64,000 bases of DNA from Sphingomonas ginsenosidivorax (GTDB taxonomy: Bacteria; Pseudomonadota; Alphaproteobacteria; Sphingomonadales; Sphingomonadaceae), in contig NZ_VOQR01000001.1 of the NCBI RefSeq assembly GCF_007995065.1, positions 1,367,001 to 1,431,000 of the forward strand, written 5' to 3'. Made by a program: the position numbers and the translations under genes. The notes under the pieces were generated by a model that saw only the letters and a list, made by a program, of their open reading frames with translations, was not told where the DNA came from and did not search any database. This document shows positions 1,801 to 16,772 of this stretch, one piece after another; position 1 is the first letter of the stretch; each line of letters begins with the position of its first letter.

Positions 1801-1938
1801 CGGTTCAGGTCATCGGTCGGCGGGTCCGGGTCCTGCATCACTGAACGCCAGACCCGGGCACGCTCCGCGACCACTCCGGCCCCTCACCCAACCGACCCTG
1901 CGCGCTTGACCCCTCGCCCTCGAACGGTACGGGCGGGC

Positions 1939-2850
1939 ATGATCGACACAGCCTCCACCCCGGACCTCGCCGCCGAACTGGTCGGGCTTCTCGACCTCGA
2001 ACCGCTGGATACCAACCTGTTTCGCGGGTCGCAGCGGCCGGGCGCCAACGCGCGCGTCTTCGGCGGACAGGTCGTCGCGCAGGCGCTGATGGCCGCCCAG
2101 CGATCGGTCGACGGACCCGCCGTCGCGCACAGCATGCACGCCTATTTCCTGCGTGCGGGCGCCGAGACCCGACCGATCATCTTCCGGGTCGAGCGGGATT
2201 TCGACGGCACCTCGTTCGCGAACCGTCGCGTCACCGCCAGTCAGAACGACGCGACGATCCTGACCCTCACGGCGTCGTTCCAGCGCCCCGAAGCCGGTCT
2301 GGAGCATGCGGCCGCGATGCCCGACGTGCCGCCGCCCGAATCCCTCCGCTCGCTCGACGTCCGCGCGCGCGACTATGCGGACCGCTCCGCGCAGGCCGCC
2401 GCGTTCCTCGGCCAACCGTCCGCCTTCGATATCCGGCCCTGCGGCGTGCCGGCGTTCCTGCAGACCGAACCCGGCGTGCCCGTGTCCCATGTCTGGCTCC
2501 GGTTCCGCGGGCGCGCGCCGGCCGAACCGGCGGTGCGCCGGGGTGTGCTCGCCTATCTGTCGGACTACGCGCTGCTCAGTGCGTCGCTGATCCCGCACGG
2601 CGTCAACATGTTCGAGCACAGCATGCAGACCGCCAGCCTCGATCACGCGATGTGGTTCCACGAGGATGTCCCGCTCGACGACTGGCTGCTCTACTCCAGC
2701 GAGAGCCCGTGGTCCGGGCATGGCCGCGGCTTTGCGCGCGGCGTGTTCCACACCCGCGACGGGCGCGCGATCGCGCATGTGACGCAGGAAGGCCTGATCC
2801 GTTCGCGACCCGATCTGGCGCCGCGTACGACCATACCGCACATGCCCTGA
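1939..2850 (+). CDS. tesB: Acyl-CoA thioesterase II (TesB family)
   Basis: This is a double-hotdog thioesterase that hydrolyses acyl-CoA to free acid and CoA in the cytoplasm. The 303-residue protein has the N-terminal TesB signature (NLFRGSQRPGANARVFGGQV, then AQALMAAQRSV and HSMHAYFLRAG) and the C-terminal half with SLDHAMWFH, ESPWSGHGRGFARG and IAHVTQEGLIR. The Asp, Ser/Thr and Gln of these three segments match the Asp-Thr-Gln catalytic set of E. coli TesB. I start at the ATG at 1939; an in-frame TTG at 1906 would add eleven Arg/Pro-rich residues absent from the family. Length agrees with the usual 285-300 residues. It precedes the porin promoter and could recycle CoA for the neighbouring catabolic cluster, but that link is only positional. 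Confidence 0.9.
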   Translation: MIDTASTPDLAAELVGLLDLEPLDTNLFRGSQRPGANARVFGGQVVAQALMAAQRSVDGPAVAHSMHAYFLRAGAETRPIIFRVERDFDGTSFANRRVTASQNDATILTLTASFQRPEAGLEHAAAMPDVPPPESLRSLDVRARDYADRSAQAAAFLGQPSAFDIRPCGVPAFLQTEPGVPVSHVWLRFRGRAPAEPAVRRGVLAYLSDYALLSASLIPHGVNMFEHSMQTASLDHAMWFHEDVPLDDWLLYSSESPWSGHGRGFARGVFHTRDGRAIAHVTQEGLIRSRPDLAPRTTIPHMP

Positions 2851-2873: not shown

Positions 2874-2903
2874 TTGACATTTCATTTGTACGGACATTAA
2901 GAC
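2874..2903 (+). promoter_or_regulatory. Porin promoter with candidate GntR operator
   Basis: TTGACA at 2874-2879 is a consensus -35 box. Sixteen to eighteen bases downstream lie weak -10 candidates (TTAAGA at 2897, TAAGAC at 2898). Between them, at 2885-2899, is TTTGTACGGACATTA, whose core TGTACGGACA is an imperfect palindrome (TGT-N4-ACA). The identical 15 bases occur inverted at 4558-4572 in the promoter of the hydratase gene. A repressor bound here would occupy the spacer and -10 region. Confidence 0.6.
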
Positions 2904-2980
2904 TATCCCAGCCGGCGCTGCCGGTCCCGGGCTATCGCGCTGCCGAAGACAGACGATCCCGATCACAAGAGGATGTCTGT

Positions 2981-4513
2981 ATGCGTACTTCCTACGCCGT
3001 CGCGCTGTGCGCGGTGCTTGCCGCCTCTCCATCGGCGGCGCAGGCCCAGGCCATGTCGGCGCTGGATACCGATCCGTCGTACCAGACCATGCTCGCGCTG
3101 ATCGACGAGATGGTCGAGAACAAGTTGGTCAGTCGCGAACGCGCCGATACGCTGATCGCCAACGCCAAGGCGAAGGCCGGGCGCGCCCTCGCCGCGAATG
3201 CGCCGCAACCACCAGTTCCGACGCCCCCCACCCCGACACCCGCGCCGACCCGCGTGCAGGTCGCCAGGCAGGAGGCCGATGCCGGCGCGAAGATCGCCCC
3301 CGTACCGGTCGGCAACGCCCAGGTCACGAGCACCGGTGGGGTCGCCTTGCCCGCCGACCTCGCGGTCGACTGGAGCCGCGGCGCGCCCGTGTTCAGCAGC
3401 CGCGACGGCAAGTTCACCTTCAAGATGCGCGGGCGCCTGCTGGCCGACGTGTCGTCCACGGGCGGATCCGACTTCGACCGCCGCAACATCACCGTCTCGA
3501 CGCTGCGCCAGTTCCGCGTCGGCGCGATCGGCACGATCGGCGATCACCTGTTCTACCAGTTCGAGACTGATTTCCGGCGCAACGCGACCGAAGTCGTGCA
3601 GGCGTTCGTCGGCTACCGCCAGAAGTTCGGCGCGACCGACGCCGACGTCCGGTTCGGCAATCTCATCACCGACCGCGGCATCGATATCGGCACCGCGTCG
3701 ACCGCCAACCCCTTCATCACGACCAACATCAACACCACCGCGCTCGCGACGCAGGGCGGCAAGGTCTTTCTGATGGGCGCGGTCGGACGCGCGGGCGGCA
3801 AGAACTGGCATGCGAGTTTCGGCGTGCACGGCGACGCGATCGACAGCGATTTCACGCGCAGCGACAACCGTCTGTTTCTGGGCCGCGCACACTGGAACCC
3901 GGTCCTCACCAAGCACGGGCTGATCCATATCGGCGGCTGGGCGTATAGCGAGAACATCCCCGACACGACGCTGCCGACGACCTTCGCGCAGGGCATGGCG
4001 GGGGCGCTCAACAACAGCGTACGCGTCGAATCCGCGGCGCTGACCGGCGCCGATGGGTCGAAGGCGTTCGGCCTCGAGCTCGGTGGCACGCTCGGGCCGT
4101 TCTATGCCTTCGGCGAATATGGCCAGCGTATCGTGCACGGCGGCCCGACCTCGACCTTCCGCAGCGGCAAGATCAAGGCGTTGTCGGTCAATGGCGGCTT
4201 CTGGATCACCGGCGAGACGCCGACCTATGCCGCACGCAGCGGCACCTATGTTGCGCCGAACGTGCTGAACTCGGTGCTCGATGGCGGCTGGGGCGCGCTG
4301 GAGGCCGTTGTGCGCTACGAGGATCTCGACAGTTCCAGCCTCCCGCTCGGGGGTACCGGCACGGCGGGTACGGTCGGGCTGAACTGGTCGCTGACCAACA
4401 ATTTCCGCTTCATGGCGGATTATACCCATTTCCGCACCGACAACCGGACGGGCAGCTTCGTCGGACGCGATTCCGGCGACACCTTCGCCGCAAGGGCCGA
4501 AGTGGCCTTCTGA
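2981..4513 (+). CDS. Outer-membrane porin, OprO/OprP (phosphate-selective porin) family
   Basis: The 510-residue precursor has a signal peptide cleaved after ASPSAAQAQA (about residue 24). Next come a short helical segment (DPSYQTMLALIDEMVENKLVSRERADTLI, quoted here only as about residues 31-60) that may form a coiled coil, a Pro-rich linker (about 74-90), and a beta-barrel region starting near residue 135 (FKMRGRLLADVS). The barrel has the family's repeated amphipathic strands and ends in the aromatic residue Phe (ARAEVAF), as outer-membrane proteins do. Members of this family form anion- or substrate-selective trimeric pores. The promoter carries the same candidate operator as the catabolic operon that starts 75 bases downstream, which suggests that this porin admits that pathway's acidic substrate rather than phosphate. 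That substrate assignment is inference. Confidence 0.85.
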   Translation: MRTSYAVALCAVLAASPSAAQAQAMSALDTDPSYQTMLALIDEMVENKLVSRERADTLIANAKAKAGRALAANAPQPPVPTPPTPTPAPTRVQVARQEADAGAKIAPVPVGNAQVTSTGGVALPADLAVDWSRGAPVFSSRDGKFTFKMRGRLLADVSSTGGSDFDRRNITVSTLRQFRVGAIGTIGDHLFYQFETDFRRNATEVVQAFVGYRQKFGATDADVRFGNLITDRGIDIGTASTANPFITTNINTTALATQGGKVFLMGAVGRAGGKNWHASFGVHGDAIDSDFTRSDNRLFLGRAHWNPVLTKHGLIHIGGWAYSENIPDTTLPTTFAQGMAGALNNSVRVESAALTGADGSKAFGLELGGTLGPFYAFGEYGQRIVHGGPTSTFRSGKIKALSVNGGFWITGETPTYAARSGTYVAPNVLNSVLDGGWGALEAVVRYEDLDSSSLPLGGTGTAGTVGLNWSLTNNFRFMADYTHFRTDNRTGSFVGRDSGDTFAARAEVAF

Positions 4514-4534
4514 ACGCCGGTCCCCGAACAGGAC

Positions 4535-4572
4535 TTGTCAACCTGCCGTAACTTCTGTAATGTCCGTACAAA
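4535..4572 (+). promoter_or_regulatory. Promoter and candidate GntR operator of the catabolic operon
   Basis: TTGTCA at 4535-4540 and TAATGT at 4558-4563 form a -35/-10 pair with an ideal 17-base spacer. The -10 box is the first part of TAATGTCCGTACAAA (4558-4572), the exact reverse complement of the 15-base element in the porin promoter. Overlap with the -10 is the usual geometry for repression. A strong Shine-Dalgarno, AAGGAGG at 4578-4584, precedes the ATG at 4589. Confidence 0.65.
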
Positions 4573-4588
4573 GCGATAAGGAGGATGT

Positions 4589-5098
4589 ATGAGCCTTTCG
4601 GCTATCAAGGTCGGCGAGCAGCGCTACCGCGCAAGCTATGGCCGCTATCTCGAGGATTTCATCGTCGGCGACATCTATGAGCACCGCCCCGGTCGGACGA
4701 TCACCGATGCGGACAATATCCAGTTCTCGCTGATGACGATGAACGCGCACCCGATGCACTGCGACGCGCAATATGCCGCCAAGAGCGAATTCGGGCGGCT
4801 GCTCGTCAACAGCGGGCTGACGCTGGCGATCGTGCTCGGCATGACCGTCAACGACGTCAGCGGCAAGTCGCCCGCCAATCTCGGCTGGACCGATATCAAG
4901 CTGACGCATCCGGTGTTCGGCGGCGATACGCTGACCGCGGAGACCGAAGTCCTCGCGATCCGGGACTCGAAGTCGCGGCCCACACAGGGGATCGTCACCA
5001 CCCGCACCCGCGCCTTCAACCAGGACGCCAAGCAGATCATGGAGTTCACGCGCAACTCGCTGGTCTACAAGCGCGGACAGTCCCCCGACGACCAGTGA
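4589..5098 (+). CDS. MaoC-family hydratase, probable itaconyl-/mesaconyl-CoA hydratase
   Basis: This single-hotdog hydratase of 169 residues carries the MaoC-type active-site segment ITDADNIQFSLMTMNAHPMH (residues 38-57) followed by CDAQYAAKSEFGR, then the substrate-channel segment NLGWTDIKLTHPVFGGDTL near residue 105-125. The N/H-x-HPMH-x-D pattern resembles hydratases of C4/C5 acids (mesaconyl-CoA and itaconyl-CoA hydratases) more than fatty-acid PhaJ enzymes. In the itaconate pathway such an enzyme adds water to itaconyl-CoA or mesaconyl-CoA to make citramalyl-CoA. The context supports this role, since a CoA-transferase and a citramalyl-CoA-lyase-like protein are encoded downstream. Exact substrate is inferred from context, not proven by residues. 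It is the first gene of the putative operon, with its own strong promoter and ribosome site. Confidence 0.8.
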   Translation: MSLSAIKVGEQRYRASYGRYLEDFIVGDIYEHRPGRTITDADNIQFSLMTMNAHPMHCDAQYAAKSEFGRLLVNSGLTLAIVLGMTVNDVSGKSPANLGWTDIKLTHPVFGGDTLTAETEVLAIRDSKSRPTQGIVTTRTRAFNQDAKQIMEFTRNSLVYKRGQSPDDQ

Positions 5099-5221
5099 TC
5101 CGAGCGACCGACCAACCGGCCGCCGCCCCGCGCCCCCGCGGTCGATCATCCCCGTGCATGCGCTGCGAGAGCGTCGTCCAAGACGCCCCGGCCGATCGTC
5201 ATTCCCTAGAGAGGTAGCCTC

Positions 5222-6595
5222 ATGGCCAGTACCATTGCCGTCAACGCCGGAGCCAGGCTGGACCGTCTGCCCATCTCCCGATTTCACTGGCGCATCCTGG
5301 GGCTGATCAGCGCCGGTGCGTTCCTCGATGCGTTCGACGTGTATCTGGCCGGCGGCGTCATCGCCGCGCTCAAGGCAGAGGGCTTCTCGACACTGGCGCA
5401 GGCCGCGGTGTTCATGTCGATGACGTTCCTCGGCATGATGATCGGTGCGGGCATGGCGGGCTATGTCGGCGACCGCTTCGGACGCCGCGCGTCGTACCAG
5501 TTCAACCTCGCGCTGTTCGGGCTCGCCTCGATCGCGGCGATCTTCTCGCCCAACATGAGTTTCCTGATCGTCTGCCGCTTCATCATGGGTATCGGCCTCG
5601 GTGCCGAGCTCGTCGTCGCGGCGGGGACGCTCGGCGAGTTCATCCCGCCCGCCTATCGCGGGCGCTGGGTGTCGATCATGGGCATGGTCGTCAATTCCGG
5701 CCTGCTGGTTGCGACCTCGGTCGGCTATATCGTCATCCCGACCCTCGGCTGGCGCTACATGTTCGCGATCGGCGGTATCCTCGCGCTGATCGTCTGGGTG
5801 ATGCGCAAGAAGATGCCGGAATCGCCGCGCTGGCTGGAATCGGTCGGCCGCAACGAAGAGGCCGAGGCGACGCTTCGCGAGATCGAAGCCGAAGTCGTCG
5901 CGCACAAGGGCCCTCTGGCGGCCGTCCCCGAGGTCCGCGTCGTGCAGCAGGTCCACGCGCCGCTCGGCGCGCTGTTCGGATCCAAGCTCCGCCGTCGCCT
6001 GATCGCCGCGACGCTCGCCGCGATCGCGGTCAACGTCTCGGTCTACGGCTTCGTCGCCTGGCTGCCGACCTTCCTGGTCAGCCATGGCACCGGCATCGTC
6101 ACCTCGCTCTGGTACACCACGCTGATGTCGTTCGGCAGCGTGTTCGGCGCGGTCGTCGCGATCGGCATCGCCGACCGTATCTCGCGTCGCGCCTCGCTGA
6201 TCGCGGCCGCGGTCGCGATCATGGTGTTCGGCTTCCTCTATCCCAATGCGCACGGCGACCTGATGGTGCCGCTGACCGGCTTCCTGCTCGTCTCCAGCAT
6301 CTACACGCTCGTGACGCTCGCGCTGTTCGCCTACATTCCCGAGCTGTTCCCGACCGCCTACCGCCTGCGCGGGACCGGGTTCGCCGGAATGTGCGGCCGC
6401 GCCGCATCGATGGTCACGCCCTACGCCACCGTCGCGCTGTTCGAGCGCTTCGGGCTGGAGGGCGTGCTCGGCATGGTCGGCGTCGTGCTTGCCTGCATGA
6501 TCGCGGCAGTCGGCCTGTTGAACATCGAGACCACCGGCCAGTCGCTCGACGACGTCTCGGACGACTCGCTGGTGACCGGGGGGGCGGCCAAGTGA
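5222..6595 (+). CDS. MFS transporter, probable carboxylate:H+ symporter
   Basis: This is a 457-residue major-facilitator protein with about twelve membrane helices. The family loop-2 motif is visible as GYVGDRFGRRASYQFNLALF (from about residue 80), and RFIMGIGLGAELVVAAG and AYRGRWVSIMG mark the fourth and fifth helices. The sequence type resembles the metabolite:H+ symporters that carry aromatic and aliphatic organic acids, and the sugar-porter-like YdjK group. It lies between the hydratase and PrpD-family genes, so it most likely imports the substrate of this pathway across the inner membrane. A purine-rich GAGAGGTAG lies 5-13 bases before the ATG. Its stop codon overlaps the GTG start of the next gene (GTGA), implying translational coupling. 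Confidence 0.85.
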   Translation: MASTIAVNAGARLDRLPISRFHWRILGLISAGAFLDAFDVYLAGGVIAALKAEGFSTLAQAAVFMSMTFLGMMIGAGMAGYVGDRFGRRASYQFNLALFGLASIAAIFSPNMSFLIVCRFIMGIGLGAELVVAAGTLGEFIPPAYRGRWVSIMGMVVNSGLLVATSVGYIVIPTLGWRYMFAIGGILALIVWVMRKKMPESPRWLESVGRNEEAEATLREIEAEVVAHKGPLAAVPEVRVVQQVHAPLGALFGSKLRRRLIAATLAAIAVNVSVYGFVAWLPTFLVSHGTGIVTSLWYTTLMSFGSVFGAVVAIGIADRISRRASLIAAAVAIMVFGFLYPNAHGDLMVPLTGFLLVSSIYTLVTLALFAYIPELFPTAYRLRGTGFAGMCGRAASMVTPYATVALFERFGLEGVLGMVGVVLACMIAAVGLLNIETTGQSLDDVSDDSLVTGGAAK

Positions 6596-7965
6596 CGCTC
6601 TCGCAGACCTTTGCCGACTTCGCGACGCGCCTGACGATCGATGCCATCCCGGACCGCGTCAAGGAACGGGCGCGCCACCTGATCCTCGACGCGGTCGGCA
6701 CCGGGCTCGCCGCGGTCGGCGCGCCCTGGGCGGAGGCGAGCTTCGCCACCGCCGAGGACCTGGGCAGCGGCACCGCCCCCGTGCTCGGCTATGGCCGCAC
6801 GCTGGCGATGCGCGACGCGGCGCTGCTGAACGGGATCGTCACGCACGGGCTCGACTATGACGATACGCACGCCCGCGGGATCATCCATGCGACCGTCAGT
6901 GCGTTCCCAACCGCGCTGGTCGCGGCGGACCAGGCGGGCGCCTCGGGCGCCGACCTGCTCGTCGCCTATATCGCCGCGATGGAGGTCTCGACCCGCGTGG
7001 CCGCCGTCGGCGCGGGCGGGTTCCACGGCTTCGGTTTCCACCCGACCGGCCTGATCGGCGCGTTCGGATCGACGCTCGCGGCCGGCAGGCTGCTCGGCCT
7101 CGACGCGCCGCAGACCGCGATGGCGCAGGGCATCGTCCTGTCGATGGCAGGCGGCAGCCTCGAATTCCTCGCCGACGGCGCCTGGACCAAGCGGCTTCAC
7201 CCCGGCTGGGCGGCGAGTTCGGCGCTCACCGCCGCCACGCTTGCGAAACGCGGCTTCGTCGGCCCGCCCGAGGCCTATGAAGGCCGGTTCGGACTCTACG
7301 CGCTCTACCTGCGCGACGCCGCGCCGGCCCTGCTCGCGCAGGCGACCGAAGGGCTCGGGGAGACCTGGGAGATCGAGACGGTTTCGGTCAAGCCGCTCCC
7401 CGCCTGCCACATGACGCACGCCGCGATCGACGCGGCGGTCGCACTCCGGTCGGAACATGACCTGACCGCAACCGACATCGCACGGGTCGTCGTACTGGTA
7501 CCCGAGGCGGTCATCCCGATCGTCTGCGAGCCCCTCGCGCCGAAGCGCACGCCGCGGACCGGCTACGATGCGCAATTCTCGATCCCCTATACCGTGGCCA
7601 CTGCGCTGCTGACCGGCAGGTTCACGCTCGACGCGCTCGATCCGCCGGCATTGAGCGATCCGGCGGTCCTCGATCTCGCCGGCCGCGTCACCTACGCCAT
7701 CGACCCGGACAGCGATTACCCCCGGCACTTTACCGGCGAGGTGATCGTCGAGACGACCGACGGCCGCATGCTTCGCCACCGCGAGGCGATCAACCGCGGC
7801 GCGCCCGACCGGCCGCTCGCCAACGCCGATATCGACGTCAAATATTTCGAGAACGCCGCGCGTACCGTCGACGTGACCCGCGCCGCCGCCATCCGGACTG
7901 CCGTGCTCGGCATGGACCGGCACCCCGCTTCCGCGCTCGGCGACATCCTCGCCCGGCGCGCCTGA
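6592..7965 (+). CDS. MmgE/PrpD family protein (aconitate decarboxylase/methylcitrate dehydratase fold)
   Basis: I place the start at the GTG at 6592, which overlaps the MFS stop (GTGA); the upstream open frame is Arg-rich and not family-like. The 457-residue protein has the full MmgE/PrpD layout: THGLDYDDTHARGIIHATVS (84-103), GFHPTGLIGAFG (148-159), DGAWTKRLHPGWAASS (195-210), SVKPLPACHMTHAAID (265-280) and GYDAQFSIPYTVATAL (324-339). These contain the Asp-His (D90/D91, H99), H150, K200 and K267 positions that correspond to catalytic residues of cis-aconitate decarboxylase and to the active site of 2-methylcitrate dehydratase. The family includes dehydratases, decarboxylases and epimerases, so the reaction cannot be read from sequence. 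A PrpD-family gene accompanies itaconate-degradation genes in Pseudomonas aeruginosa too, where its role is not settled to my knowledge. Confidence 0.85.
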   Translation: MTLSQTFADFATRLTIDAIPDRVKERARHLILDAVGTGLAAVGAPWAEASFATAEDLGSGTAPVLGYGRTLAMRDAALLNGIVTHGLDYDDTHARGIIHATVSAFPTALVAADQAGASGADLLVAYIAAMEVSTRVAAVGAGGFHGFGFHPTGLIGAFGSTLAAGRLLGLDAPQTAMAQGIVLSMAGGSLEFLADGAWTKRLHPGWAASSALTAATLAKRGFVGPPEAYEGRFGLYALYLRDAAPALLAQATEGLGETWEIETVSVKPLPACHMTHAAIDAAVALRSEHDLTATDIARVVVLVPEAVIPIVCEPLAPKRTPRTGYDAQFSIPYTVATALLTGRFTLDALDPPALSDPAVLDLAGRVTYAIDPDSDYPRHFTGEVIVETTDGRMLRHREAINRGAPDRPLANADIDVKYFENAARTVDVTRAAAIRTAVLGMDRHPASALGDILARRA

Positions 7966-7984
7966 TTTCTAGGAAGACCTCCCC

Positions 7985-9154
7985 ATGACCACTCAGATCC
8001 CGGAAGACACGATGACCGACGAAGAGATCATGATCCTCGATTCGATCGACAAGTTCATCGAGACCGATGTACGGCCGTTCGTCCACCAGCTCGAACATGA
8101 CGACGAATATCCGCAGAAGATCGTCGACACGATGAAGGAGATGGGCCTGTTCGGCCTGATGATCGCGCCCGAATTCGGCGGCTTCGGCGTCTCGACGCTG
8201 ACCTATGCGCGGATCATCGAGAAGATCTCGACCGTGTGGATGTCGGTCGCGGGCATCATCAACAGCCACATGATCATGGCGATGACGGTGCAGCGCTGCG
8301 GCACCGAGGCGCAGAAGGATCATTACCTGCCGAAGTTCGCGACCGGCGAGCTCCGCGGCGGGATCGGCCTGACCGAGCCCGATGCGGGCACCGACCTCCA
8401 GGCGATCCGCACCACCGCGGTGCGCGACGGCGACGACTATGTCGTCAACGGCAGCAAGATGTGGATCACCAATTCGGGCTCGGGCAACACCATCCTGCTG
8501 CTCGTCAAGACCGACACGACCGCCGAGCCGCGCCACAAGGGCATGAGCCTGCTGATCGCCGAGAAGGGCGATGGCTTCATCGTGTCCAAGAAGCTGGAGA
8601 AGCTCGGCTACAAGGGCATCGACAGCAACGCGCTCACCTTCGACGGGTACCGCGTGCCCGTCGACCGGCTGATCGGCGGGGTCGAGGGCGTCGGCCTGAA
8701 ACAGGTGCTCGGCGGGCTCGAGCTCGGGCGGATCAACGTGGCCGCGCGCGGCGTCGGGATCGCGCAGGCGGCGCTCGACGAGGCGGTCGCCTATGCGCAG
8801 ACGCGCAAGACGTTCGGCAAGCCGATCTGCGAGCATCAGGCGATCCAGCTCAAACTCGGCGAGATGACGACGCGCACTCATGCCGCGCGGCTGCTGACCG
8901 AGGCGGCGGCCAAAGCCTATGACCGCGGCGAGCGGTGCGACATGGAAGCCGGCATGGCGAAGTATTTCGCCACCGAAGCCGGCCTGGAGAATGCGATCGA
9001 GGCGATGCGGATCTTCGGCGGCTACGGCTATTCGAAGGAATACAATGTCGAGCGCCTCTACCGCGACGCGCCGCTGCTGACGATCGGCGAGGGCACCAAC
9101 GAGCTGCAGCGGATCATCATCGCCAAGCAGATCATCGCGCGGAACCCGGCATGA
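7985..9154 (+). CDS. Acyl-CoA dehydrogenase
   Basis: This 389-residue flavoprotein oxidises an acyl-CoA to the 2,3-enoyl-CoA and passes electrons to ETF. It has the N-terminal helical domain, the FAD-binding signatures GIGLTEPDAGTD (about 126-137) and MWITNSG (about 159-165), the C-terminal RKTFGKPICEHQAIQ and RIFGGYGYSKEY, and the catalytic base in LLTIGEGTNELQ (E369, equivalent to E376 of medium-chain dehydrogenase). Length is that of the short/medium-chain group. In a C5-dicarboxylate cluster the natural guess is methylsuccinyl-CoA or a related branched acyl-CoA, but the substrate cannot be read from the sequence. It starts 19 bases after the PrpD-family gene, and its TGA overlaps the ATG of the next gene (ATGA). 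Confidence 0.92.
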   Translation: MTTQIPEDTMTDEEIMILDSIDKFIETDVRPFVHQLEHDDEYPQKIVDTMKEMGLFGLMIAPEFGGFGVSTLTYARIIEKISTVWMSVAGIINSHMIMAMTVQRCGTEAQKDHYLPKFATGELRGGIGLTEPDAGTDLQAIRTTAVRDGDDYVVNGSKMWITNSGSGNTILLLVKTDTTAEPRHKGMSLLIAEKGDGFIVSKKLEKLGYKGIDSNALTFDGYRVPVDRLIGGVEGVGLKQVLGGLELGRINVAARGVGIAQAALDEAVAYAQTRKTFGKPICEHQAIQLKLGEMTTRTHAARLLTEAAAKAYDRGERCDMEAGMAKYFATEAGLENAIEAMRIFGGYGYSKEYNVERLYRDAPLLTIGEGTNELQRIIIAKQIIARNPA

Positions 9155-10359
9155 CCCAGCCCGCCCCTAACCAGCCACTCGCGGGACTCCGTATCGTCGC
9201 GATCGAACAATATGGCGCCGGGCCGTTCGGGACGCAGCAACTCGCCGACCTGGGTGCCGACGTCATCAAGATCGAGAACCACAAGGACGGCGGCGATATC
9301 GGCCGCCATGTCGGCCCGTATTTCTTCGCCCCCGGTGACAGCCATTTCTACGAATCGCTCAACCGCAACAAGCGCAGCATCGGCCTAGACCTGAAGAGCG
9401 CCGACGGGCGTGCGGTGCTGGAGAAGCTCGTCGCGGATTCCGACGTGGTGTTCAACAACCTGCGTGGCGATCTGCCGGCGAAGCTGGGGCTCGACTATGC
9501 CGCGCTGTCGCAGTTCAACCCGGCGATCGCGTGCGTCCACTTGTCCGCCTATGGCCGCACCGGCAGTCGCGCGGCGTGGCCCGGCTATGACTATCTGATG
9601 CAGGCCGAGGCCGGCTATCTGTCGCTGACCGGCGAGCCGGGAACACCGCCCTCGCGCTTCGGACTGTCGATCGTCGACTTCATGACCGGCACCACCGCCG
9701 CGCTCGCGATCCTCGCCGGCGTCGTCTCGGCGCGCGCCAGCGGCGTCGGGTGCGATCTGGACGTCAGCCTGTTCGACGTCGCGCTCGGCAACCTCAACTA
9801 TGTCGCGCAGTGGTATCTGAACGGCGGTGTCACCGTCGAACGCACCTCGCGCTCCAGCCACCCGTCGCTGACCCCCAGCCAGCTCTACACGACCAGCGAC
9901 GGCTGGATCTTCGTGATGTGCAACAAGGAGAAGTTCTTCGAGGTCCTGTGCGGGCTGATCGGGCGTCCGGACTGGACGACCGACCCGCGCTACGCGACCT
10001 TCGCCGCCAGGCTGGAGAACAGGCCTGCGTTCAACGCCGATCTCGATGCGGTGCTGTCGACCCGGACTACCGCGGACTGGATGCAGATGTTCGAAGGCAG
10101 GGTCCCTGCCGCGCCGGTGCTCGACGTCCAGCAGGCGCTCGACAACCCGTTTCTTGCCGAATCGAAGCGGATCGTCGACTTCCAGCATCCCGAGCACGGT
10201 CCCCTGCCCGGTATCGCCTCGTCGATCCGAGCGGCGGGTGTAGAGCATCCGGACAAGGCGGCGCCCGCCCTCGGCGCGGATACCGACGCCGTCCTCGCGA
10301 CGCTCGGCTATACCGTCGACGATGTCGATGCCTTGCGGGTCCGCGGCGCCGTCCGGTGA
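9151..10359 (+). CDS. CaiB/BaiF family III CoA-transferase, probable C5-dicarboxylate CoA-transferase
   Basis: Starting at the ATG that overlaps the dehydrogenase stop, the 402-residue protein is a complete class III CoA-transferase. It shows LRIVAIEQYGAGPFGTQQLA (13-32), DLGADVIKIE, the RNKRSIGLDLKS motif, WPGYDYLMQAEAGYLSLTGE and GLSIVDFMTGTTAALAILAG, whose Asp176 matches the acyl-anhydride-forming Asp169 of formyl-CoA transferase. Such enzymes activate carboxylic acids using succinyl-CoA or another donor. In P. aeruginosa the itaconate pathway uses a CoA-transferase encoded next to the lyase, and the neighbouring hydratase and lyase here point to activation of itaconate or mesaconate. Other C4/C5 acids remain possible. 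Confidence 0.85.
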   Translation: MTQPAPNQPLAGLRIVAIEQYGAGPFGTQQLADLGADVIKIENHKDGGDIGRHVGPYFFAPGDSHFYESLNRNKRSIGLDLKSADGRAVLEKLVADSDVVFNNLRGDLPAKLGLDYAALSQFNPAIACVHLSAYGRTGSRAAWPGYDYLMQAEAGYLSLTGEPGTPPSRFGLSIVDFMTGTTAALAILAGVVSARASGVGCDLDVSLFDVALGNLNYVAQWYLNGGVTVERTSRSSHPSLTPSQLYTTSDGWIFVMCNKEKFFEVLCGLIGRPDWTTDPRYATFAARLENRPAFNADLDAVLSTRTTADWMQMFEGRVPAAPVLDVQQALDNPFLAESKRIVDFQHPEHGPLPGIASSIRAAGVEHPDKAAPALGADTDAVLATLGYTVDDVDALRVRGAVR

Positions 10360-10403
10360 CACCGGCGCTTGCATCGAACGCCAAGGCGTTGAACGATATC
10401 CTA

Positions 10404-10423
10404 TTGTCCGGATTACCCGACAA
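10404..10423 (+). promoter_or_regulatory. Candidate autoregulatory operator of the GntR gene
   Basis: TTGTCCGGATTACCCGACAA is a 20-base imperfect palindrome with perfect TTGTC/GACAA ends, 19 bases before the GntR start codon. Its left half, TTGTCCGGATTA, resembles the TTGTACGGACATTA element in the porin and hydratase promoters. A second inverted repeat, GATATCC (10396-10402) and GGATATC (10434-10440), flanks it. Autoregulation is inferred. Confidence 0.5.
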
Positions 10424-10442
10424 ACCGAACGATGGATATCCG

Positions 10443-11186
10443 ATGCCGCAGCTTCGTCAGCAACCGCGCTACCTGCAACTCGCCCAGACGCTGATCACCG
10501 AGATCGAGGATGGACGCTACCCCATCGGCACGCTGCTGCCGACCGAGTTCGAACTCTGCGACCAGTTCGGCGCGAGCCGCTTCACCGTGCGCGAGGCGAT
10601 CAAGCGTCTCGTCCAATCGGGCATGGTCTCGCGCCAGGCGGGGGTCGGCACGCGGGTCCTGGGGCTGTCGCGGCCGGCCGCCTACCGCCAGGTGATGGAG
10701 GGTCTTGCCGATCTCCAGCAATACACCAACGAGACCCGCCTCTCGCTCATCGGGCGGTCGACGGTAACGCTGGACGGGCCGATCGCGGACCAGGTCGGTG
10801 CCACCCCCGGCCAGACCTGGCTCTACCTCCGCGCGCTGCGCCGCGCCGCCGGGATCAGCCCGATCTCCTATTCGGACATCTATCTCCACCCCGCGTTCCG
10901 CAGCGTGAAGCTGGAGGACGATGTCGGCTCGCTACCGATCTACAGCCGGATCGAGGAACAGTTCGGCGAACGCGTCGCCGAGGTTCGCCAGCATATCGAA
11001 GCGGTGGCGATCCCCGCACCGATCGCCAGACTGCTCGAAACCAAGCCCGGCGCTCCGGGCCTGCGACTGACTCGCCAGTATCTGAACGTCCGCGGCGAGG
11101 TCATCGAGATGGCGATCAATACCCATCCGGCAGACCGCTATTCCTATTCCCAGACCTTCCGCCAGGACTCCGTGTCCGGCGCCTAG
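10443..11186 (+). CDS. GntR-family transcriptional regulator, HutC/UTRA subfamily
   Basis: The 247-residue protein has an N-terminal winged helix-turn-helix (residues about 9-75: RYLQLAQTLITEIEDGRYPI, LPTEFELCDQFGASRFTVRE, IKRLVQSGMVSRQAGVGTRV) and a C-terminal UTRA ligand-binding domain (about 90-240, with YLRALRRAAGISPISYSDIY and GLRLTRQYLNVRGEVIEMA). HutC-type GntR proteins usually repress a catabolic operon until a pathway metabolite binds. It sits between the CoA-transferase and lyase genes and probably controls them through the TTGTnCGGA elements described separately. I prefer the ATG at 10443, about ten residues before the helix-turn-helix as is normal. A GTG at 10356 overlapping the CoA-transferase stop is also in frame and would place the palindrome inside the gene. 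Confidence 0.85.
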   Translation: MPQLRQQPRYLQLAQTLITEIEDGRYPIGTLLPTEFELCDQFGASRFTVREAIKRLVQSGMVSRQAGVGTRVLGLSRPAAYRQVMEGLADLQQYTNETRLSLIGRSTVTLDGPIADQVGATPGQTWLYLRALRRAAGISPISYSDIYLHPAFRSVKLEDDVGSLPIYSRIEEQFGERVAEVRQHIEAVAIPAPIARLLETKPGAPGLRLTRQYLNVRGEVIEMAINTHPADRYSYSQTFRQDSVSGA

Positions 11187-11197
11187 AGGATGATCTC

Positions 11198-12019
11198 ATG
11201 ACCATTGCCGCCCGCAGCATCCTGTTCGTCCCCGGCGACCGCCCCGAGCGTTTCGACAAGGCGCGCGCGAGCGGCGCGGACCTCGTGGTGATCGACCTCG
11301 AGGATGCGGTCCTCCCCGACCGCAAGGCCGCAGCGCGCGACACGATCCATGATACGCTCGCGGACCTGACCGAGCCGCGCTTCGTCGTCCGCATCAACAG
11401 CCTCGACACGGAGTGGCACGCCGACGACGTCCGCGCGCTGGCGGGCCTGCCGGGCGTATCGGGCTTGATGCTGCCCAAGGCCGAGCGTGCGTCGGACTTC
11501 GCCGCCATGCACGAGGCCGCGACCGGCAAGCCGTTGCATGCGCTGGTCGAGACGGTCTCGGCGGTCTTCGCGCTCGCCGATCTCGTCACCGCGCCGGGGC
11601 TCGCGCGGCTGTCGTTCGGGACGGTCGATTTCCAGGCCGACGCCGGCATCGACGGCGACGGTGCCGAGATCGACCATGTCCGCACGATGATTGTCCTCCA
11701 TTCGCGCAACGCCGGGCTCGCCGCCCCGGTCGACGGCGTTTCGACCGACCTGTCGGACGATGCGGCGCTGGCACGCGACGCCGACCACGCGCGGCGCTTC
11801 GGCTTCGGCGGAAAGCTCTGCGTCCATCCCCGCCAGGTACAGGTCGTCAACACGGCCTTCCTTCCCTCGGACGTCGACGTCCAATGGGCGACCCGCGTGA
11901 TGGCGGCGATCGACGGCGGGTTCGGCGCCGTCGCGCTGGACGGCAAGCTGATCGACAAACCCGTCGTCGATCGGGCCCGCCGGCTTCTGGGCGCTCACGC
12001 CGCATACCAGTCGGCGTGA
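11198..12019 (+). CDS. CitE-like (HpcH/HpaI) acyl-CoA lyase, probable citramalyl-CoA lyase
   Basis: This 273-residue TIM-barrel lyase of the citrate-lyase beta-subunit family has RSILFVPGDRPERFDKA (6-22), the ADLVVIDLEDAV strand, FVVRINS (R65), GLMLPKAE, HALVETVSAV (E119) and FGTVDFQADAG (D144), and ends with FGGKLCVHPRQVQVV. The Arg, Glu and Asp are the CoA-ester and Mg2+ binding residues of this family. Stand-alone CitE-like proteins include malyl-CoA and citramalyl-CoA lyases. With a CoA-transferase and a MaoC hydratase in the same cluster, cleavage of citramalyl-CoA to pyruvate and acetyl-CoA is the most economical reading. It lies 11 bases after the GntR gene with an AGAGGA ribosome site, so it is probably cotranscribed with the regulator. 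Confidence 0.87.
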   Translation: MTIAARSILFVPGDRPERFDKARASGADLVVIDLEDAVLPDRKAAARDTIHDTLADLTEPRFVVRINSLDTEWHADDVRALAGLPGVSGLMLPKAERASDFAAMHEAATGKPLHALVETVSAVFALADLVTAPGLARLSFGTVDFQADAGIDGDGAEIDHVRTMIVLHSRNAGLAAPVDGVSTDLSDDAALARDADHARRFGFGGKLCVHPRQVQVVNTAFLPSDVDVQWATRVMAAIDGGFGAVALDGKLIDKPVVDRARRLLGAHAAYQSA

Positions 12020-12050: not shown

Positions 12051-13127
12051 TCACCGCAAGCGGTAGGCCGCCGCCGACCCGAAGACTGCGAGTTGGAGCA
12101 CCAGAACCGCGAGCGCACCGCGGACTTCGCCCAGCGATGCGCCCATCTGGTTCAGCGGCACGAAGATGTGCGTCGCAGGCGTCACGGGGATCATCCACGC
12201 GATCGCCTGAACCCAGTCGGGCATCGCGAACAGCGGCCAGGCGAATCCCGACAGGAAGACGAACGGGATCGACGTCGGGATCAGCAACTTCAGCGCGTCG
12301 TCGCCGCTCCTCACCAGGCTGCCGATCGTCATAGCGAGTGCGGATACCGTCGCGGCGAATATCGGAACGGTCAGCAGCAGTGCCGGGATGTTGCCGCCGT
12401 GCGGGATGTCCTGCAGCCAGTAGATCAAACCGAAATAGAACAGCCCGGCAAGGGTCCCGATCGTCGTGCACGCGGCCCACACGCCGAGGAACGCCCCCCG
12501 CTGCCACCGGCCGGTGCGGCGCCGCTCGGCGATCAGGCGCGCGACCGAGAACAGCAAGGTCTGTTGCAGGATGATGTTGGCGACCGCCGGGAAGATATAG
12601 TCGCGGTAGCCTTGGGTGGTGTTGAACAGCGGGCGCGTGACGACCGGCGTGACGGGCACCGCCGCGGATCGCGCCAGCCCCGACAGCCGTCCCTCCAGCG
12701 TCGCGCCGATCGCCGCGCCGATCGTCTTGCCGACCGCCTCCGCGCGCAGGAGATAGGCCCCGTTCAGCCACACCGCGATCCCGCCGCCGGGCCGCCCCTC
12801 GACCAGCGCCGGACCCAGATCGCGCGGGATCAGCAGGATGCCCTCGGCCTGCCGGCTGCGCACCAGCGCCCGCGCCGCCGCCATGTCCGGGACGTCGGCA
12901 GCGATCTCGACCTCGTGCGACGCGCCGAGGTTGCGGACGATCGCGCGCGACACGGCGCTGCGATCGGCATCGACGATGACGATGGGAAGCCCCTCGACGA
13001 CCTGATGCGCATAGGGCGCCGGATAATAGAAGGCGTAGAACAGCACCGAGACCACCGCGACCGCGACCAGGTCGCGCGTCCGCAGTATCTCGAGGAGCGC
13101 GCCTTCGAAGGCTGGAGCGAACCTCAT
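12051..13127 (-). CDS. ABC-2 type transporter permease (second of pair)
   Basis: This 358-residue YhhJ/YbhR-like permease has an N-terminal helix (about 20-40), a large periplasmic domain (about 45-165, with PIVIVDADRSAVSRAIVRNL), and five helices in the C-terminal half ending with the conserved P-x-TH segment ATHIFVPLNQMGASL. The ATG at 13127 overlaps the stop of the preceding permease gene (ATGA). The frame is open far upstream, but that part is antisense-like shadow of the neighbour. It forms the end of a four-gene operon with a TolC-like channel, an HlyD-like fusion protein and another permease, so it probably exports a small molecule. No ABC ATPase is encoded nearby. Confidence 0.87.
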   Translation of the reverse strand: MRFAPAFEGALLEILRTRDLVAVAVVSVLFYAFYYPAPYAHQVVEGLPIVIVDADRSAVSRAIVRNLGASHEVEIAADVPDMAAARALVRSRQAEGILLIPRDLGPALVEGRPGGGIAVWLNGAYLLRAEAVGKTIGAAIGATLEGRLSGLARSAAVPVTPVVTRPLFNTTQGYRDYIFPAVANIILQQTLLFSVARLIAERRRTGRWQRGAFLGVWAACTTIGTLAGLFYFGLIYWLQDIPHGGNIPALLLTVPIFAATVSALAMTIGSLVRSGDDALKLLIPTSIPFVFLSGFAWPLFAMPDWVQAIAWMIPVTPATHIFVPLNQMGASLGEVRGALAVLVLQLAVFGSAAAYRLR

Positions 13128-14260
13128 GCCGATCGACGCGCCTGCCGCCGCAGCAGCAGCGTCGCCCCGCCGCCCGCGACGAGCGCGGCGAGCGCGAGGA
13201 TCGCGGCCTGCCTCGCCCATACCGCGATGTCGACGCCGATCGTCTGGTCCATCTCCAGCGTGACATAATGGGTGAGCGGCAGGATCGCGCTCCAGATCCG
13301 CGCGACCACGATGCCGCCGGTGATGGGCAGCGACGCGCCCGAATAGGCGAGCGCCGACCCTGCATAGATCACGCTCGCGGACAGGCTGGTGGCGACCTCG
13401 CCGGTCAGCGTGACGAGCAATGTCGCAATCGCCGCGGTCGCGACGAACAGCAACAGCCCGCCGATCGCGACGAGCCCGATCGCGCCGGTGAAGGCGAAGC
13501 CTTGCCCGATCGTCAGCCACACGTGCCACAGGCACAGCCAGAGCGTTCCCACCACGACATGCGGCACCAGCCGCCCCGCCGCCGCAGCTGCGGGCGCACC
13601 GACCCGCACCGCCCAGGGTCCCATCGACCCATCGACCAGCTCGCGTCCGAGCGATGCCGCGCAGGTCACGGCGATCAGCAGGTGGAGGATCGCGGGACCG
13701 ATCAGCAGCCCGAGATACCATTCCAGGCTGGCGGACGGATTGCCGAGCAACGTCACCTCCACGCCCGGCAGCGGTACGCGCAGCAGCGCCACCCCCGCGA
13801 CGCCGGCGTCCTCGGGCGCCTGTCGCGCGAGGTCCGCGGTGATCGTCGCCTGCAGCAGCGCCGACGTCAGCGCGCCTGTCGACAGGAACGCGGTCTGGTA
13901 GAAGATCTCGATCGTGCGCGGGGTCGCATCCGCCCGCCTGCCGCCCAGACCCGACGGCAGCACGACCACCGCGACCGCGCGCTCGCGCCGGATCGCCGAG
14001 AGCCCCTCTGCCAGGCCGGAGACGTCGTCGACGACCTTCAGCGCATCGACCGCGCCGATCGCGCGGACGATCGACCGCGACGCGGCGCTGCGATCCTGGT
14101 CGACGATCACGACGCCGAGCCCGCGTGGCGACCCCTGCGACAGCATCCCGCCCATGACAACGAGGCACACCAGCGGCACAAGGGTCAGCAGCGCGAGGTC
14201 GAACCGGTCGCGCCACAGATGCGCGAGCTCCGCGGCCAGCGCGCGCCGGAACACGCTCAT
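13124..14260 (-). CDS. ABC-2 type transporter permease (first of pair)
   Basis: The 378-residue protein has the same architecture as its neighbour: N-terminal helix (about 22-40, ending MLSQGSPRGL), a periplasmic domain with VVIVDQDRSAASRSIVRAIG (about 49-68), and a membrane region from about residue 178 onward with five or six helices, including LPLTHYVTLEMDQTIGVD near the end. The repeated DQDRSAxSR/DADRSAVSR element in both permeases shows they are paralogues that probably form a heterodimer. It overlaps the HlyD-like gene by four bases at its start and the second permease at its end, indicating one translationally coupled operon. Confidence 0.87.
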   Translation of the reverse strand: MSVFRRALAAELAHLWRDRFDLALLTLVPLVCLVVMGGMLSQGSPRGLGVVIVDQDRSAASRSIVRAIGAVDALKVVDDVSGLAEGLSAIRRERAVAVVVLPSGLGGRRADATPRTIEIFYQTAFLSTGALTSALLQATITADLARQAPEDAGVAGVALLRVPLPGVEVTLLGNPSASLEWYLGLLIGPAILHLLIAVTCAASLGRELVDGSMGPWAVRVGAPAAAAAGRLVPHVVVGTLWLCLWHVWLTIGQGFAFTGAIGLVAIGGLLLFVATAAIATLLVTLTGEVATSLSASVIYAGSALAYSGASLPITGGIVVARIWSAILPLTHYVTLEMDQTIGVDIAVWARQAAILALAALVAGGGATLLLRRQARRSA

Positions 14261-15258
14261 CGCGCCCAGTCGAACAGCACGCTCATCCCCGGACGCAGGT
14301 CCGCCACGCGCTCGACCGGGCGCAGCTCGACCGCGAACGCCCGGACGTCGTAGCCGCTCGACTGCCGCGTCGCGCGGACCGTCGCGAACGCGGCCTCGGG
14401 CGCGATATGCGTGACCCGGAACCGGACGTCGCGCGCCAGCGCCGGGACGTGGCCGACCAGGATGCCGCCCGGACGGACGCCGGCATATTGGCTCTCGCGC
14501 ACCGTGATCTCGACATGGGGATGGTCGATGTCGATCACCTGATAGGCGGGCAGCACCGGGCTGACGATCTCGCCGGGCTGGAGCAACTTGCGCGACACCT
14601 CGCCGGCGATCGGCGACACCAGCCGGGTCTCGGTCATCAGCGACTGCGCGGTCGACAGCCCCGCCTGCGCGATCCGAACCTGCGCTGCCGCCGCCTGCTT
14701 GTCCTCGCTACGCGGCCCGGCGAGCGCCTTCTCATATTGCAGCCGCGCGGCCTCCGCGGACATGCGGCTGCTGTCGCGCGCCGCATGCGCCTCGTCGCGG
14801 CGCTGCGCCGCGATCACGCCTTCGGCATAGAGCGTGTCCGCGCGGCGGCTCGACGTCGCGCCCAGATCCGCCGCCGCCTGTGCCGATCGCCAGATCGCGC
14901 GGAGCGATCCGACATCCTCGCTGCGCGCACCCGCCTGCGCCACCGCATCGAGCGCCCGCGCGGTGTCGAGCACACCCTGCGCCTGGCGTTCGGCATTGCC
15001 CAGTTCCGGACTCGACAGCGTGGCGAGCACCTGCCCCGCCTTCACGCGCGCGCCCTCGTCGACGAGCAGGCGGTCGACACGCGCGAGCGCCTTGGTCGCG
15101 ACGTTGACGCTGTCCGCCTCGACCATGCCCTGAATCTGCTCGGGCCCCGGACGGCTCGCGAGCCACAACCCGACCCCGACGATCGCGACGACGACGATCA
15201 GGCCGGCATAGAGCAGCAGGCGGGCGCGGCGGGTCGGCGGGGCGGTGGGGTCGCTCAT
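14257..15258 (-). CDS. HlyD/EmrA-type membrane fusion (periplasmic adaptor) protein
   Basis: The 333-residue adaptor has one N-terminal membrane anchor (about residues 11-29, LLLYAGLIVVVAIVGVGLWL), a biotinyl-lipoyl half (VNVATKALARVDRLLVDEGARV, quoted in part as residues about 50-72), a long alpha-helical hairpin (about 85-200) rich in Ala, Glu and Arg, the second lipoyl half (LVSPIAGEVSRKLLQPGEIV), and a beta-barrel domain (about 235-325). It would bridge the inner-membrane permeases and the TolC-like channel. Four-base overlaps with both neighbours place it in the same operon. Confidence 0.9.
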   Translation of the reverse strand: MSDPTAPPTRRARLLLYAGLIVVVAIVGVGLWLASRPGPEQIQGMVEADSVNVATKALARVDRLLVDEGARVKAGQVLATLSSPELGNAERQAQGVLDTARALDAVAQAGARSEDVGSLRAIWRSAQAAADLGATSSRRADTLYAEGVIAAQRRDEAHAARDSSRMSAEAARLQYEKALAGPRSEDKQAAAAQVRIAQAGLSTAQSLMTETRLVSPIAGEVSRKLLQPGEIVSPVLPAYQVIDIDHPHVEITVRESQYAGVRPGGILVGHVPALARDVRFRVTHIAPEAAFATVRATRQSSGYDVRAFAVELRPVERVADLRPGMSVLFDWAR

Positions 15259-16772
15259 CGGTCGGTTCCGTAGGTGAGGCGCTGGTCGGCCTGGGCGAGA
15301 TGCGTGCCGAACGCGTCGAGCCGGCTGGCCGATGCGAGCAGCCCGGCGAGCGCGAGGTCGTATTCATAGGCGACCGCGATGCGCTGCGCCTCCGCGGTGT
15401 CGAGCGCGGCCTGCGCGGCGATCACCGGCGTCGCGGTCCCCTCGCCCTCGCGGAACGCCACCGCCTGCACGCGGACATTCTCGCGCGCCGCGACGAGGCT
15501 GCTGTCGAGCAGGACGAACGAGCGGCGTGCGCCCTCGACGAGATTATAGGCGCGGATCGTCGCGCTGGTGGCGATCCGGCGCGATTCGGCGGCGGTATCG
15601 GCGGCGGCGGCAGCCTGCGAGCGCGCGGCGTCCTCGGTACGCCGGCGATCGATGTTCGAGAGGATGGTGTACCGGACGCCGACGCCCGCGATCCAGTCCG
15701 GCTCGATCGGCAACGCGTTCGAGCGGTTGAAGTTGTATTCGCCGAACGCATAGGCCTGCGGCAACCGGCGCGACCGGGCAAGCGCGACGCCGGCGTCGGC
15801 GATCTGGCGCCCGGCGTCCGCGGTGCGGGCCTCCGGCGCCTTGCCCTCGCTGCCGAGGAAGGTCTCGACCGGCGCCAGCGGGCGCGTCTGGACGAACAAC
15901 GCGGTCGTCGGCACCACCGCGCCGTCGATCTCGAGCAGCCGGGCGAGTTCGTCGCGCGCGGTCGCACTGGAAAGCTCGGCGCGCTGATACACGCGTTCGG
16001 CGGTATCGCGCGCGACCTGCACTTCCAGCGTGCGGGCGCGGGGAATGACGCCCGCCGATTCCAGCTTGCGCGTATCCGCGAGGATCTTGTCGAGCGCATC
16101 GCGGCTGCGGCGCGCGGAATCGAGCAGTCCCGCGGCGGCCTGCTGGCCGAAATAGGCACGGATGAGATTGATCCGCGCCAGGTCCACCACCTGCGCGCGC
16201 CGCCCCTCCGCCATTGCGACCCCGCCCTGCGCCGCACGCTGGATCGCCGGGATCGCGCCACCCGTATAGAGCGGCATCGCCGCCTGCACGGTCGGCCGGA
16301 AGACCTCGTCGCGGAAGCGGTAGCTGAGCTGGTCGGGGATCGCATCGAACAGTCCCGGCAGCGCCTGCGACAGCCGGCCGGTGATCTCGCTCGCGATCTG
16401 CTGGTAAGCGGGCGGCACGCTGGCGGGGAAGGACGCGAGGAAATCCTGCGTGCTGCCCAGCGCATCGCCCTTGGCCCCGGCAAGATCGACCGACAGCGTC
16501 TTCTCGTAGACCAGATACTGCGCCGACGCAGTGACGATCGGCCGGTGCAGCGTCCGCATCGCGTCGGCCCCCGCCTTCGCAGCGTCGACCCCGTGATCGG
16601 CCGCGCTGACTGCCCGCGACGTCCGGTCGAACCGCATTTGCGCCGCATCGAAACTCAGCGCCGTCTGGGCGTCCGCAGCCGACGACACGGGCACGGGCGC
16701 TGCCAGCGCGACCGCCGTCGCCATCGACCAATGCCACTTGCCCGCCACTGTTGCCGCCCTCGAAATCGCCAC
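15255..16772 (-). CDS. TolC-family outer-membrane efflux protein
   Basis: The 505-residue protein has a signal-like N-terminus ending ...SSAADAQ (about residue 36) and two OEP-type repeats with long Ala/Arg/Glu-rich helices (for example AGVIPRARTLEVQVARDTAE and EGTATPVIAAQAALDTAEAQ, the latter typical of the family's second repeat). It would form the outer-membrane channel of the tripartite exporter. The frame opens with GTG at 16772. An internal ATG at 16724 would leave a shorter signal peptide, and either start is possible. A hairpin CCCTGCT/AGCAGGG at 16772-16792 overlaps the GTG start, which mildly favours the internal start. The gene is first in the four-gene operon. Confidence 0.85.
   Translation of the reverse strand: MAISRAATVAGKWHWSMATAVALAAPVPVSSAADAQTALSFDAAQMRFDRTSRAVSAADHGVDAAKAGADAMRTLHRPIVTASAQYLVYEKTLSVDLAGAKGDALGSTQDFLASFPASVPPAYQQIASEITGRLSQALPGLFDAIPDQLSYRFRDEVFRPTVQAAMPLYTGGAIPAIQRAAQGGVAMAEGRRAQVVDLARINLIRAYFGQQAAAGLLDSARRSRDALDKILADTRKLESAGVIPRARTLEVQVARDTAERVYQRAELSSATARDELARLLEIDGAVVPTTALFVQTRPLAPVETFLGSEGKAPEARTADAGRQIADAGVALARSRRLPQAYAFGEYNFNRSNALPIEPDWIAGVGVRYTILSNIDRRRTEDAARSQAAAAADTAAESRRIATSATIRAYNLVEGARRSFVLLDSSLVAARENVRVQAVAFREGEGTATPVIAAQAALDTAEAQRIAVAYEYDLALAGLLASASRLDAFGTHLAQADQRLTYGTDR

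Follow-up and report, generated by a model that had tools for sequence, protein, structure and literature searches.

The analysis presented here concerns a cluster of eight genes in a stretch of 64,000 nucleotides from Sphingomonas ginsenosidivorax (contig NZ_VOQR01000001.1, positions 1,367,001 to 1,431,000), which will be referred to as the window; the host genome comprises 4.14 Mb in two contigs. The cluster is probably a GntR-controlled regulon for the use of a branched C5 diacid, methylsuccinate being the likeliest candidate, and itaconate could enter it at the step of coenzyme A (CoA) transfer. The predicted chemistry, comprising CoA activation, oxidation, hydration and a retro-Claisen cleavage that yields acetyl-CoA plus a 2-oxo acid, is likely; that the substrate is a C5 diacid we judge probable. 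The preliminary description of this DNA had proposed the degradation of itaconate, mesaconate or a related C5 acid. The gene set and the grouping of the lyase agree with that proposal, but methylsuccinate is a better first guess than itaconate alone, since itaconate alone would need neither an acyl-CoA dehydrogenase nor an MmgE/PrpD protein.

This reading is favoured because the five catabolic gene types match those of a characterised cluster; because the lyase groups with the citramalyl-CoA lyase Ccl in a tree, by hidden Markov model (HMM), in shared segments and in the residues equivalent to those of Rv2498c; because the same core occurs with either kind of citramalyl-CoA lyase; because the hydratase best fits the family RipB_Ich and the transferase best fits diacid transferases; because relatives of the cluster carry tripartite ATP-independent periplasmic (TRAP) transport genes of the diacid type; and because a Caballeronia locus keeps the order of seven genes and the putative operator recurs. 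As described in PMC12290011, the ich-mcd-msi-ict-ccl cluster of Cupriavidus necator and Pseudomonas aeruginosa encodes the degradation of itaconate and methylsuccinate, its PrpD-family protein (Msi) being an (S)-(R)-methylsuccinate isomerase and its dehydrogenase an (RS)-methylsuccinyl-C4-CoA dehydrogenase. All five catabolic types are present in the window, as had been claimed.

Window genes were assigned to families using Pfam, and to finer subfamilies using NCBIfam with the NCBI cut-offs. All eight reading frames are open and run along the + strand, and their matches to the named families far exceed chance, in agreement with the preliminary description. An outer-membrane porin of the Porin_O_P family (2981..4513, 510 aa; PF07396, 92 bits) is followed by a MaoC-type, RipB/Ich-like protein of 169 aa (4589..5098; 71 bits), a predicted hydratase of mesaconyl-C4-CoA or itaconyl-CoA, and by a 457-aa carrier of the major facilitator superfamily (MFS; 5222..6595; Sugar_tr/MFS, PF00083/PF07690, 163 bits), a predicted diacid:H+ symporter. 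Next are an MmgE/PrpD protein with a GTG start (6592..7965; 210 and 134 bits), predicted to isomerize the free diacid; an acyl-CoA dehydrogenase of 389 aa (7985..9154; 170 bits), predicted to act on methylsuccinyl-CoA; and a class III (CaiB/BaiF) CoA-transferase (9151..10359; CoA_transf_3, PF02515, 375 bits), a predicted succinyl-CoA:diacid transferase. The cluster ends with a GntR/UTRA regulator of the HutC-like kind (10443..11186 with a revised ATG start; PF00392, 68 bits; PF07702, UTRA, 73 bits) and a CitE-family protein of 273 aa (11198..12019; HpcH_HpaI, 119 bits), a predicted (S)-citramalyl-CoA lyase.

Segments, tree, HMM and structural comparison (made, like the others below, with VIA-align 2) place the lyase with citramalyl-CoA lyases. 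A tree built from 62 selected rows has a 100/96 split, and the window lyase falls among the 38 rows on the side that includes P. aeruginosa Ccl and the Pseudomonas-type cluster lyases. It scores 329 bits on an HMM of the latter, whose 19 training rows (343–420 bits) match by construction; six lyases from a paralogous sphingomonad cluster score 184–211 bits. The segments FGx[VLI]D and P[VIL]DGV of the Pseudomonas-type lyases, a few of which vary them, are present, and Arg, Glu and Asp are kept at the sites of Arg64, Glu112 and Asp138 of Rv2498c.

The loci gathered for comparison carry L-numbers, and those of the window's kind are termed W-type. The core of hydratase, PrpD protein, dehydrogenase, transferase and GntR occurs with a Ccl-side lyase in the window, in L025 and, as judged by HMM (307 bits), in the Caballeronia locus L160; L130 and L133 have Ccl-side lyases next to incomplete or partly exchanged cores. 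The lyase of the Azospirillum locus L161 scores 227 bits on the NCBIfam family RipC_Ccl (window, 161; P. aeruginosa Ccl, 157), with 3qll (161 bits; 8khl, 97 bits), titled RipC from Yersinia pestis, as its best relative of solved structure. A like locus, L149, has a lyase from the far side of the split. One core thus occurs with two separate lyase kinds, both from known citramalyl-CoA pathways, and the feature shared by both kinds is citramalyl-CoA cleavage. Nothing else points as strongly to a C5 substrate as this swap and the hydratases nearest to RipB_Ich, although all of these scores are below the NCBI cut-offs.

RipB_Ich (NF038241) is by far the best family for the window hydratase (222.6 bits; next family, 83 bits), and the hydratases of L160, L130 and L161 score 224.5, 225.4 and 189.8 bits. 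The motif N-x4-H is found at residues 52–57. P. aeruginosa Ich has no match to RipB_Ich, nor is there a real match between it and the window hydratase. A search of the rest of the host genome for a Pseudomonas-type hydratase, run without a positive control, found none.

All four non-lyase enzymes of the window fall outside HMMs of the Pseudomonas-type enzymes. The hydratase scores 17 bits (PaIch family, 371–450), the dehydrogenase 232 (Mcd, 724–825), the transferase 237 (Ict, 551–752) and the PrpD protein 216 (787–860 for the 12 Msi-like rows from which the Msi HMM was built here; this differs from the published HMM, with its cut-off of 550). The closest NCBIfam families for the transferase, both under cut-off, are succinate–glutarate (243 bits) and succinyl-CoA:mesaconate (197 bits). 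The dehydrogenase has a Glu in the motif GEGTNE, which begins at residue 368. This Glu is found in all 17 rows of the window or paralogue kind (11 W-type, six from the paralogue cluster) and in none of 14 Pseudomonas-type rows, all of which have AP[IV]STN at that site and instead carry a Glu further towards the N terminus, in NAER. We take the NAER Glu to be at the base position of the isovaleryl-CoA dehydrogenase type.

In the PrpD protein (P0003, whose numbering is used), the Msi residues His88, Glu91, His102, His152, Lys202 and Lys266 are matched by H84, D87, H98, H149, K199 and K266. None of these varies across the 38 rows chosen from the query and 120 listed relatives, and neither does His144, five residues before the conserved His; the Asp in place of Glu91 is likewise found in the IDS epimerase. 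Tyr148 of Msi is missing in 9/9 W-type rows and kept in 33/33 rows at least 60% identical to the P. aeruginosa PA7 protein; a Tyr was seen in two rows merely 40% like the window's (L145, L151). The structural model (predicted local distance difference test score 87) has low-confidence stretches that include 91–93 and 146–148, adjoining active-site residues, and the His/Tyr exchange is accordingly read from the sequence alignments. Because the model is equally near to cis-aconitate decarboxylase and to the IDS epimerase, it is the gene context that suggests an isomerase.

A 15-bp sequence, TTTGTACGGACATTA, is situated at 2885..2899 (+), 81 bases from the porin ATG, and again, inverted, at 4558..4572 (−), 16 bases from the hydratase ATG. 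These two exact copies (0.02 expected in the window) are the only ones in the 4.14 Mb genome, even when up to two mismatches are allowed. In L025, TGTACGGACA lies ahead of the hydratase gene and, in the opposite orientation, upstream of the gene for an OprB-type porin that stands in place of Porin_O_P, and TGTCCGGACA lies between the transferase and GntR genes. In L160, TTTGTCCGTACAAA precedes the hydratase gene; variants in Caballeronia and Azospirillum occur before that gene, between it and the lyase gene, and upstream of a TRAP binding protein. A count covering 133 loci (L025–L157) found the 10-mers TGTCCGGACA, TGTACGGACA or TGTCCGTACA at 33 sites in 16 of the 34 window- or paralogue-kind loci, against one site in one of the 99 others. 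The perfect palindrome TTGTCCGGACAA was absent from the host genome at up to one mismatch, where its reversed control gave three matches; the window's operator variant therefore stands apart. In literature text the palindrome letters turned up in four papers with unrelated titles. An imperfect inverted repeat, TTGTCCGG-ATTA-CCCGACAA (10404..10423), noted by eye and without statistics ahead of the revised GntR start, is a possible auto-operator. From the co-occurrence of the operator with the GntR gene, GntR may be expected to bind it.

By virtue of the shared operator, the porin and GntR probably belong to the cluster, as had been proposed; since porin and hydratase genes are each preceded by an operator copy, however, the porin is probably a transcription unit apart from the genes from hydratase to lyase. 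The reported cluster start, 2874, is a TTGACA hexamer ahead of the porin. No sigma-70 promoter reached the scanner's threshold between 1800 and 12500, and promoters were judged by eye alone. The four-base overlaps noted previously are clear at the junctions of carrier and PrpD (GTGA, 6592) and of dehydrogenase and transferase (ATGA, 9151), but gaps of 123, 19 and 11 bases separate hydratase and carrier, PrpD and dehydrogenase, and GntR and lyase. A third overlap (GTGA, 10356) depends on the doubtful GTG start of a long GntR frame. Alignment with the L025 relative begins no earlier than residue 45 of that frame, for which reason the ATG at 10443 is the likelier start.

The cluster recurs in other genomes. 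L025 (genome G294) has the same order, its hydratase, MFS carrier, PrpD protein, dehydrogenase, transferase, GntR and lyase being 89, 71, 70, 87, 76, 61 and 73% identical to those of the window; among 297 other genomes of the family it alone has a hydratase above 70% (next best, 61–62%). The identical seven-gene order is found on plasmid pSBC1_2 of Caballeronia sp. SBC1 (L160; 71, 62, 58, 74, 65, 53 and 50%), where, as in L025, the carrier keeps its place. On Azospirillum plasmids (L161, L162) the five-gene core is accompanied by TRAP genes and a divergent lyase. In the Pseudosulfitobacter plasmid pSMR1-4 (L130), the order is hydratase, PrpD, dehydrogenase, GntR and lyase, and the transferase is closer to the Pseudomonas kind (434 bits). 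L133 has TRAP, PrpD, dehydrogenase, transferase, GntR, MFS and lyase genes. The named close relatives of the window's lyase and PrpD protein are Sphingomonas and Novosphingobium records. Relatives of the hydratase (E≤1e–50) occur in 56 of 298 family genomes, host included, in a hand count that takes both cluster kinds together.

On this evidence, the following route can be proposed. The diacid would be taken up via the porin and the MFS carrier, its stereoisomers would be interconverted by the PrpD protein, and the class III transferase would move CoA onto it from succinyl-CoA. The dehydrogenase would then yield mesaconyl-C4-CoA, the RipB-like hydratase would convert this (or itaconyl-CoA) to (S)-citramalyl-CoA, and the CitE protein would split the latter into acetyl-CoA and pyruvate. 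GntR would repress both transcription units via TTTGTACGGACATTA until released by the substrate or a CoA ester.

Several observations weigh against this proposal. The window PrpD protein lacks the catalytic Tyr148 of the known methylsuccinate isomerase. The hydratase falls short of the RipB_Ich cut-off of 340 bits, and that of the paralogue-cluster locus L042 fits the family better (242.3 versus 222.6 bits); scores on RipC_Ccl are likewise below cut-off, as is true of P. aeruginosa Ccl itself (157 versus 375). The W-type lyases cluster together weakly (89/62). Lyases from other contexts (L126/L127, Cupriavidus and, from the host genome itself, a long-branched paralogue) fall on the Ccl side of the tree too, and C. 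necator has a second lyase homologue that, in the view of PMC12290011, does not serve itaconate; the grouping therefore does not prove the lyase substrate. By tblastn (1e–8), no lyase was found in the L142, L144, L146 and L148 stretches and no MaoC hydratase in those of L133, L144, L146 and L148, and among 14 loci of the window or paralogue kind that carry a related GntR, the operator 10-mer is absent from four (L039, L041, L133, L149).

Another 2-substituted succinate might undergo the same chemistry: tricarballylate or aconitate, for instance, would yield oxaloacetate, and an alkyl- or arylsuccinate would yield the matching 2-oxo acid. Four of the five enzymes lie outside the characterised Pseudomonas group and so do not fix the specificity, citryl-CoA lyases belong to the CitE family, the best NCBIfam match of the MFS carrier is aromatic acid/H+ symport (TIGR00895; 189 bits, under its cut-off), and the Msi site could accommodate larger C3-modified substrates, according to PMC12290011. 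The occurrence of one core with two citramalyl-CoA lyase kinds, and a transferase nearest to glutarate and mesaconate transferases, speak for a C5 acid instead, and we regard this alternative as rather unlikely, if worth keeping in view. It is less probable still that the PrpD protein is a decarboxylase or dehydratase, for example one that feeds itaconate from cis-aconitate into a route to pyruvate and acetyl-CoA. Such a role would leave the dehydrogenase without a function; the IDS epimerase is nearer by sequence (150 bits, versus 114 for the decarboxylase chain 12vw), and the exchanged site aligns to Met, not His, in 12vw.

A leucine-type pathway (via 3-hydroxy-3-methylglutaryl-CoA) or an aromatic-acid pathway with a CitE lyase seems very improbable. 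M. tuberculosis Rv2498c, which serves itaconate and leucine breakdown (PMC6689899), is 38% identical to the window lyase over the structural alignment (6aq4), but it lies on the opposite side of the lyase split, and no carboxylase or ring-cleaving enzyme is found among the eight genes. Least probable of all, and rejected here, is plain orthology to the P. aeruginosa cluster: gene types are the same and the lyase is similar, but identities, HMM scores, the position of the catalytic Glu, the PrpD residue and the hydratase family all differ. The view that the cluster differs from the Pseudomonas locus in transport and control alone is accordingly not borne out. The cluster appears to work like that of Pseudomonas, yet four of its five enzymes fall outside the corresponding families.

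These data raise the prospect, for and against which we see the case as evenly balanced, of a third, convergent methylsuccinate/itaconate route. Four of five catabolic enzymes would have been replaced by non-orthologous members: a RipB-kind hydratase, a dehydrogenase with its catalytic Glu at the classical site, a His/His rather than His/Tyr PrpD isomerase and another class III transferase. A HutC-type GntR and a palindrome would tie in transport, by a porin of either of two families and TRAP or MFS carriers, and either lyase kind would be accepted. The module would be common to alpha- and betaproteobacteria and often plasmid-borne.

Other observations concern the surroundings of these genes. 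A TesB-like acyl-CoA thioesterase gene lies immediately upstream in the window (1906–2850, +), probably outside the regulon; a 53% relative is near the L025 cluster, in a different place. Downstream, on the − strand, are ABC-2 permease, HlyD-type and outer-membrane efflux (OEP) genes resembling an efflux operon (12051–16772), a pyrroloquinoline quinone-dependent dehydrogenase (16897–19278) and an L,D-transpeptidase domain protein (19385–20815). Directly behind the lyases of the differing clusters L130 (9798–10484) and L133 (9858–10559) are homologous S-adenosylmethionine-dependent methyltransferases, 39–44% identical; among the NCBIfam matches listed none was above cut-off, and trans-aconitate methyltransferase was absent. 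The TRAP binding proteins of these loci were rejected as IctP orthologues (L133, 25% identity; L130, no match among those listed). An amidase gene lies near the GntR and transport genes in the Azospirillum-kind cluster (L161, 13939–15327; L162, 14020–15408; L149, 10863–12257), and an amide of the diacid may be one of the natural substrates. The paralogue cluster is common in Sphingomonadaceae (L028, L030, L036, L037, L040, L042, L043, L044); its fullest form is lyase, hydratase, dehydrogenase, two transferases, GntR and two PrpD genes, with TGTCCGGACA palindromes, and in L042 TonB receptors adjoin further copies.

No description of this variant was found in the literature covered, namely titles and abstract openings of mostly open papers and term look-ups in PMC12599236 and PMC9875883. 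A 2025 census of methylsuccinate isomerases, using an HMM of the Pseudomonas/Cupriavidus type, placed 78 of 1767 in Alphaproteobacteria (PMC12290011). If the reading given here is true, that census misses a second set, and the itaconate/methylsuccinate capacity of soil and plant-associated bacteria is undercounted. The cluster would also be a natural test case, in two enzyme families, for the exchange of a catalytic base, and its simple predicted operator could be used in a diacid sensor. Itaconate itself is of interest as an immune metabolite, a fungal product and a bio-based monomer. A short C5-diacid pathway, it seems, would have been built again in nature from largely different enzymes.

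In comparison with known systems, the cluster resembles those of P. aeruginosa and C. necator in its five catabolic types (CoA-transferase, hydratase, lyase, acyl-CoA dehydrogenase and MmgE/PrpD protein), in clustered genes with a class III transferase and in a same-side lyase (43% identical). It differs in that its dehydrogenase, PrpD protein and transferase are only 32–34% identical to those of P. aeruginosa PA7 (L045, the reference, taken from a genome scan), its hydratase is of another family (169 versus 275 aa), its dehydrogenase Glu lies elsewhere, the Msi Tyr is replaced by His, and GntR, MFS and porin genes, with no TRAP genes, are among its eight. The Yersinia operon, which has been described as convergent with the Pseudomonas type (PMC12290011), shares the RipB-like hydratase and, through the Azospirillum relative, a RipC-like lyase; unlike it, the window has a class III transferase, an added dehydrogenase and PrpD protein, and a Ccl-like lyase. 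The Yersinia genes are named ripABC, and the CoA-transferase RipA belongs to a class other than class III. Also similar is the sphingomonad paralogue cluster (hydratase 56–62%, dehydrogenase 61–66%, transferase 50–55%, a related GntR and the same kind of operator), which differs in its other-side lyase, second transferase, two quite different PrpD proteins and TonB receptors (L042).

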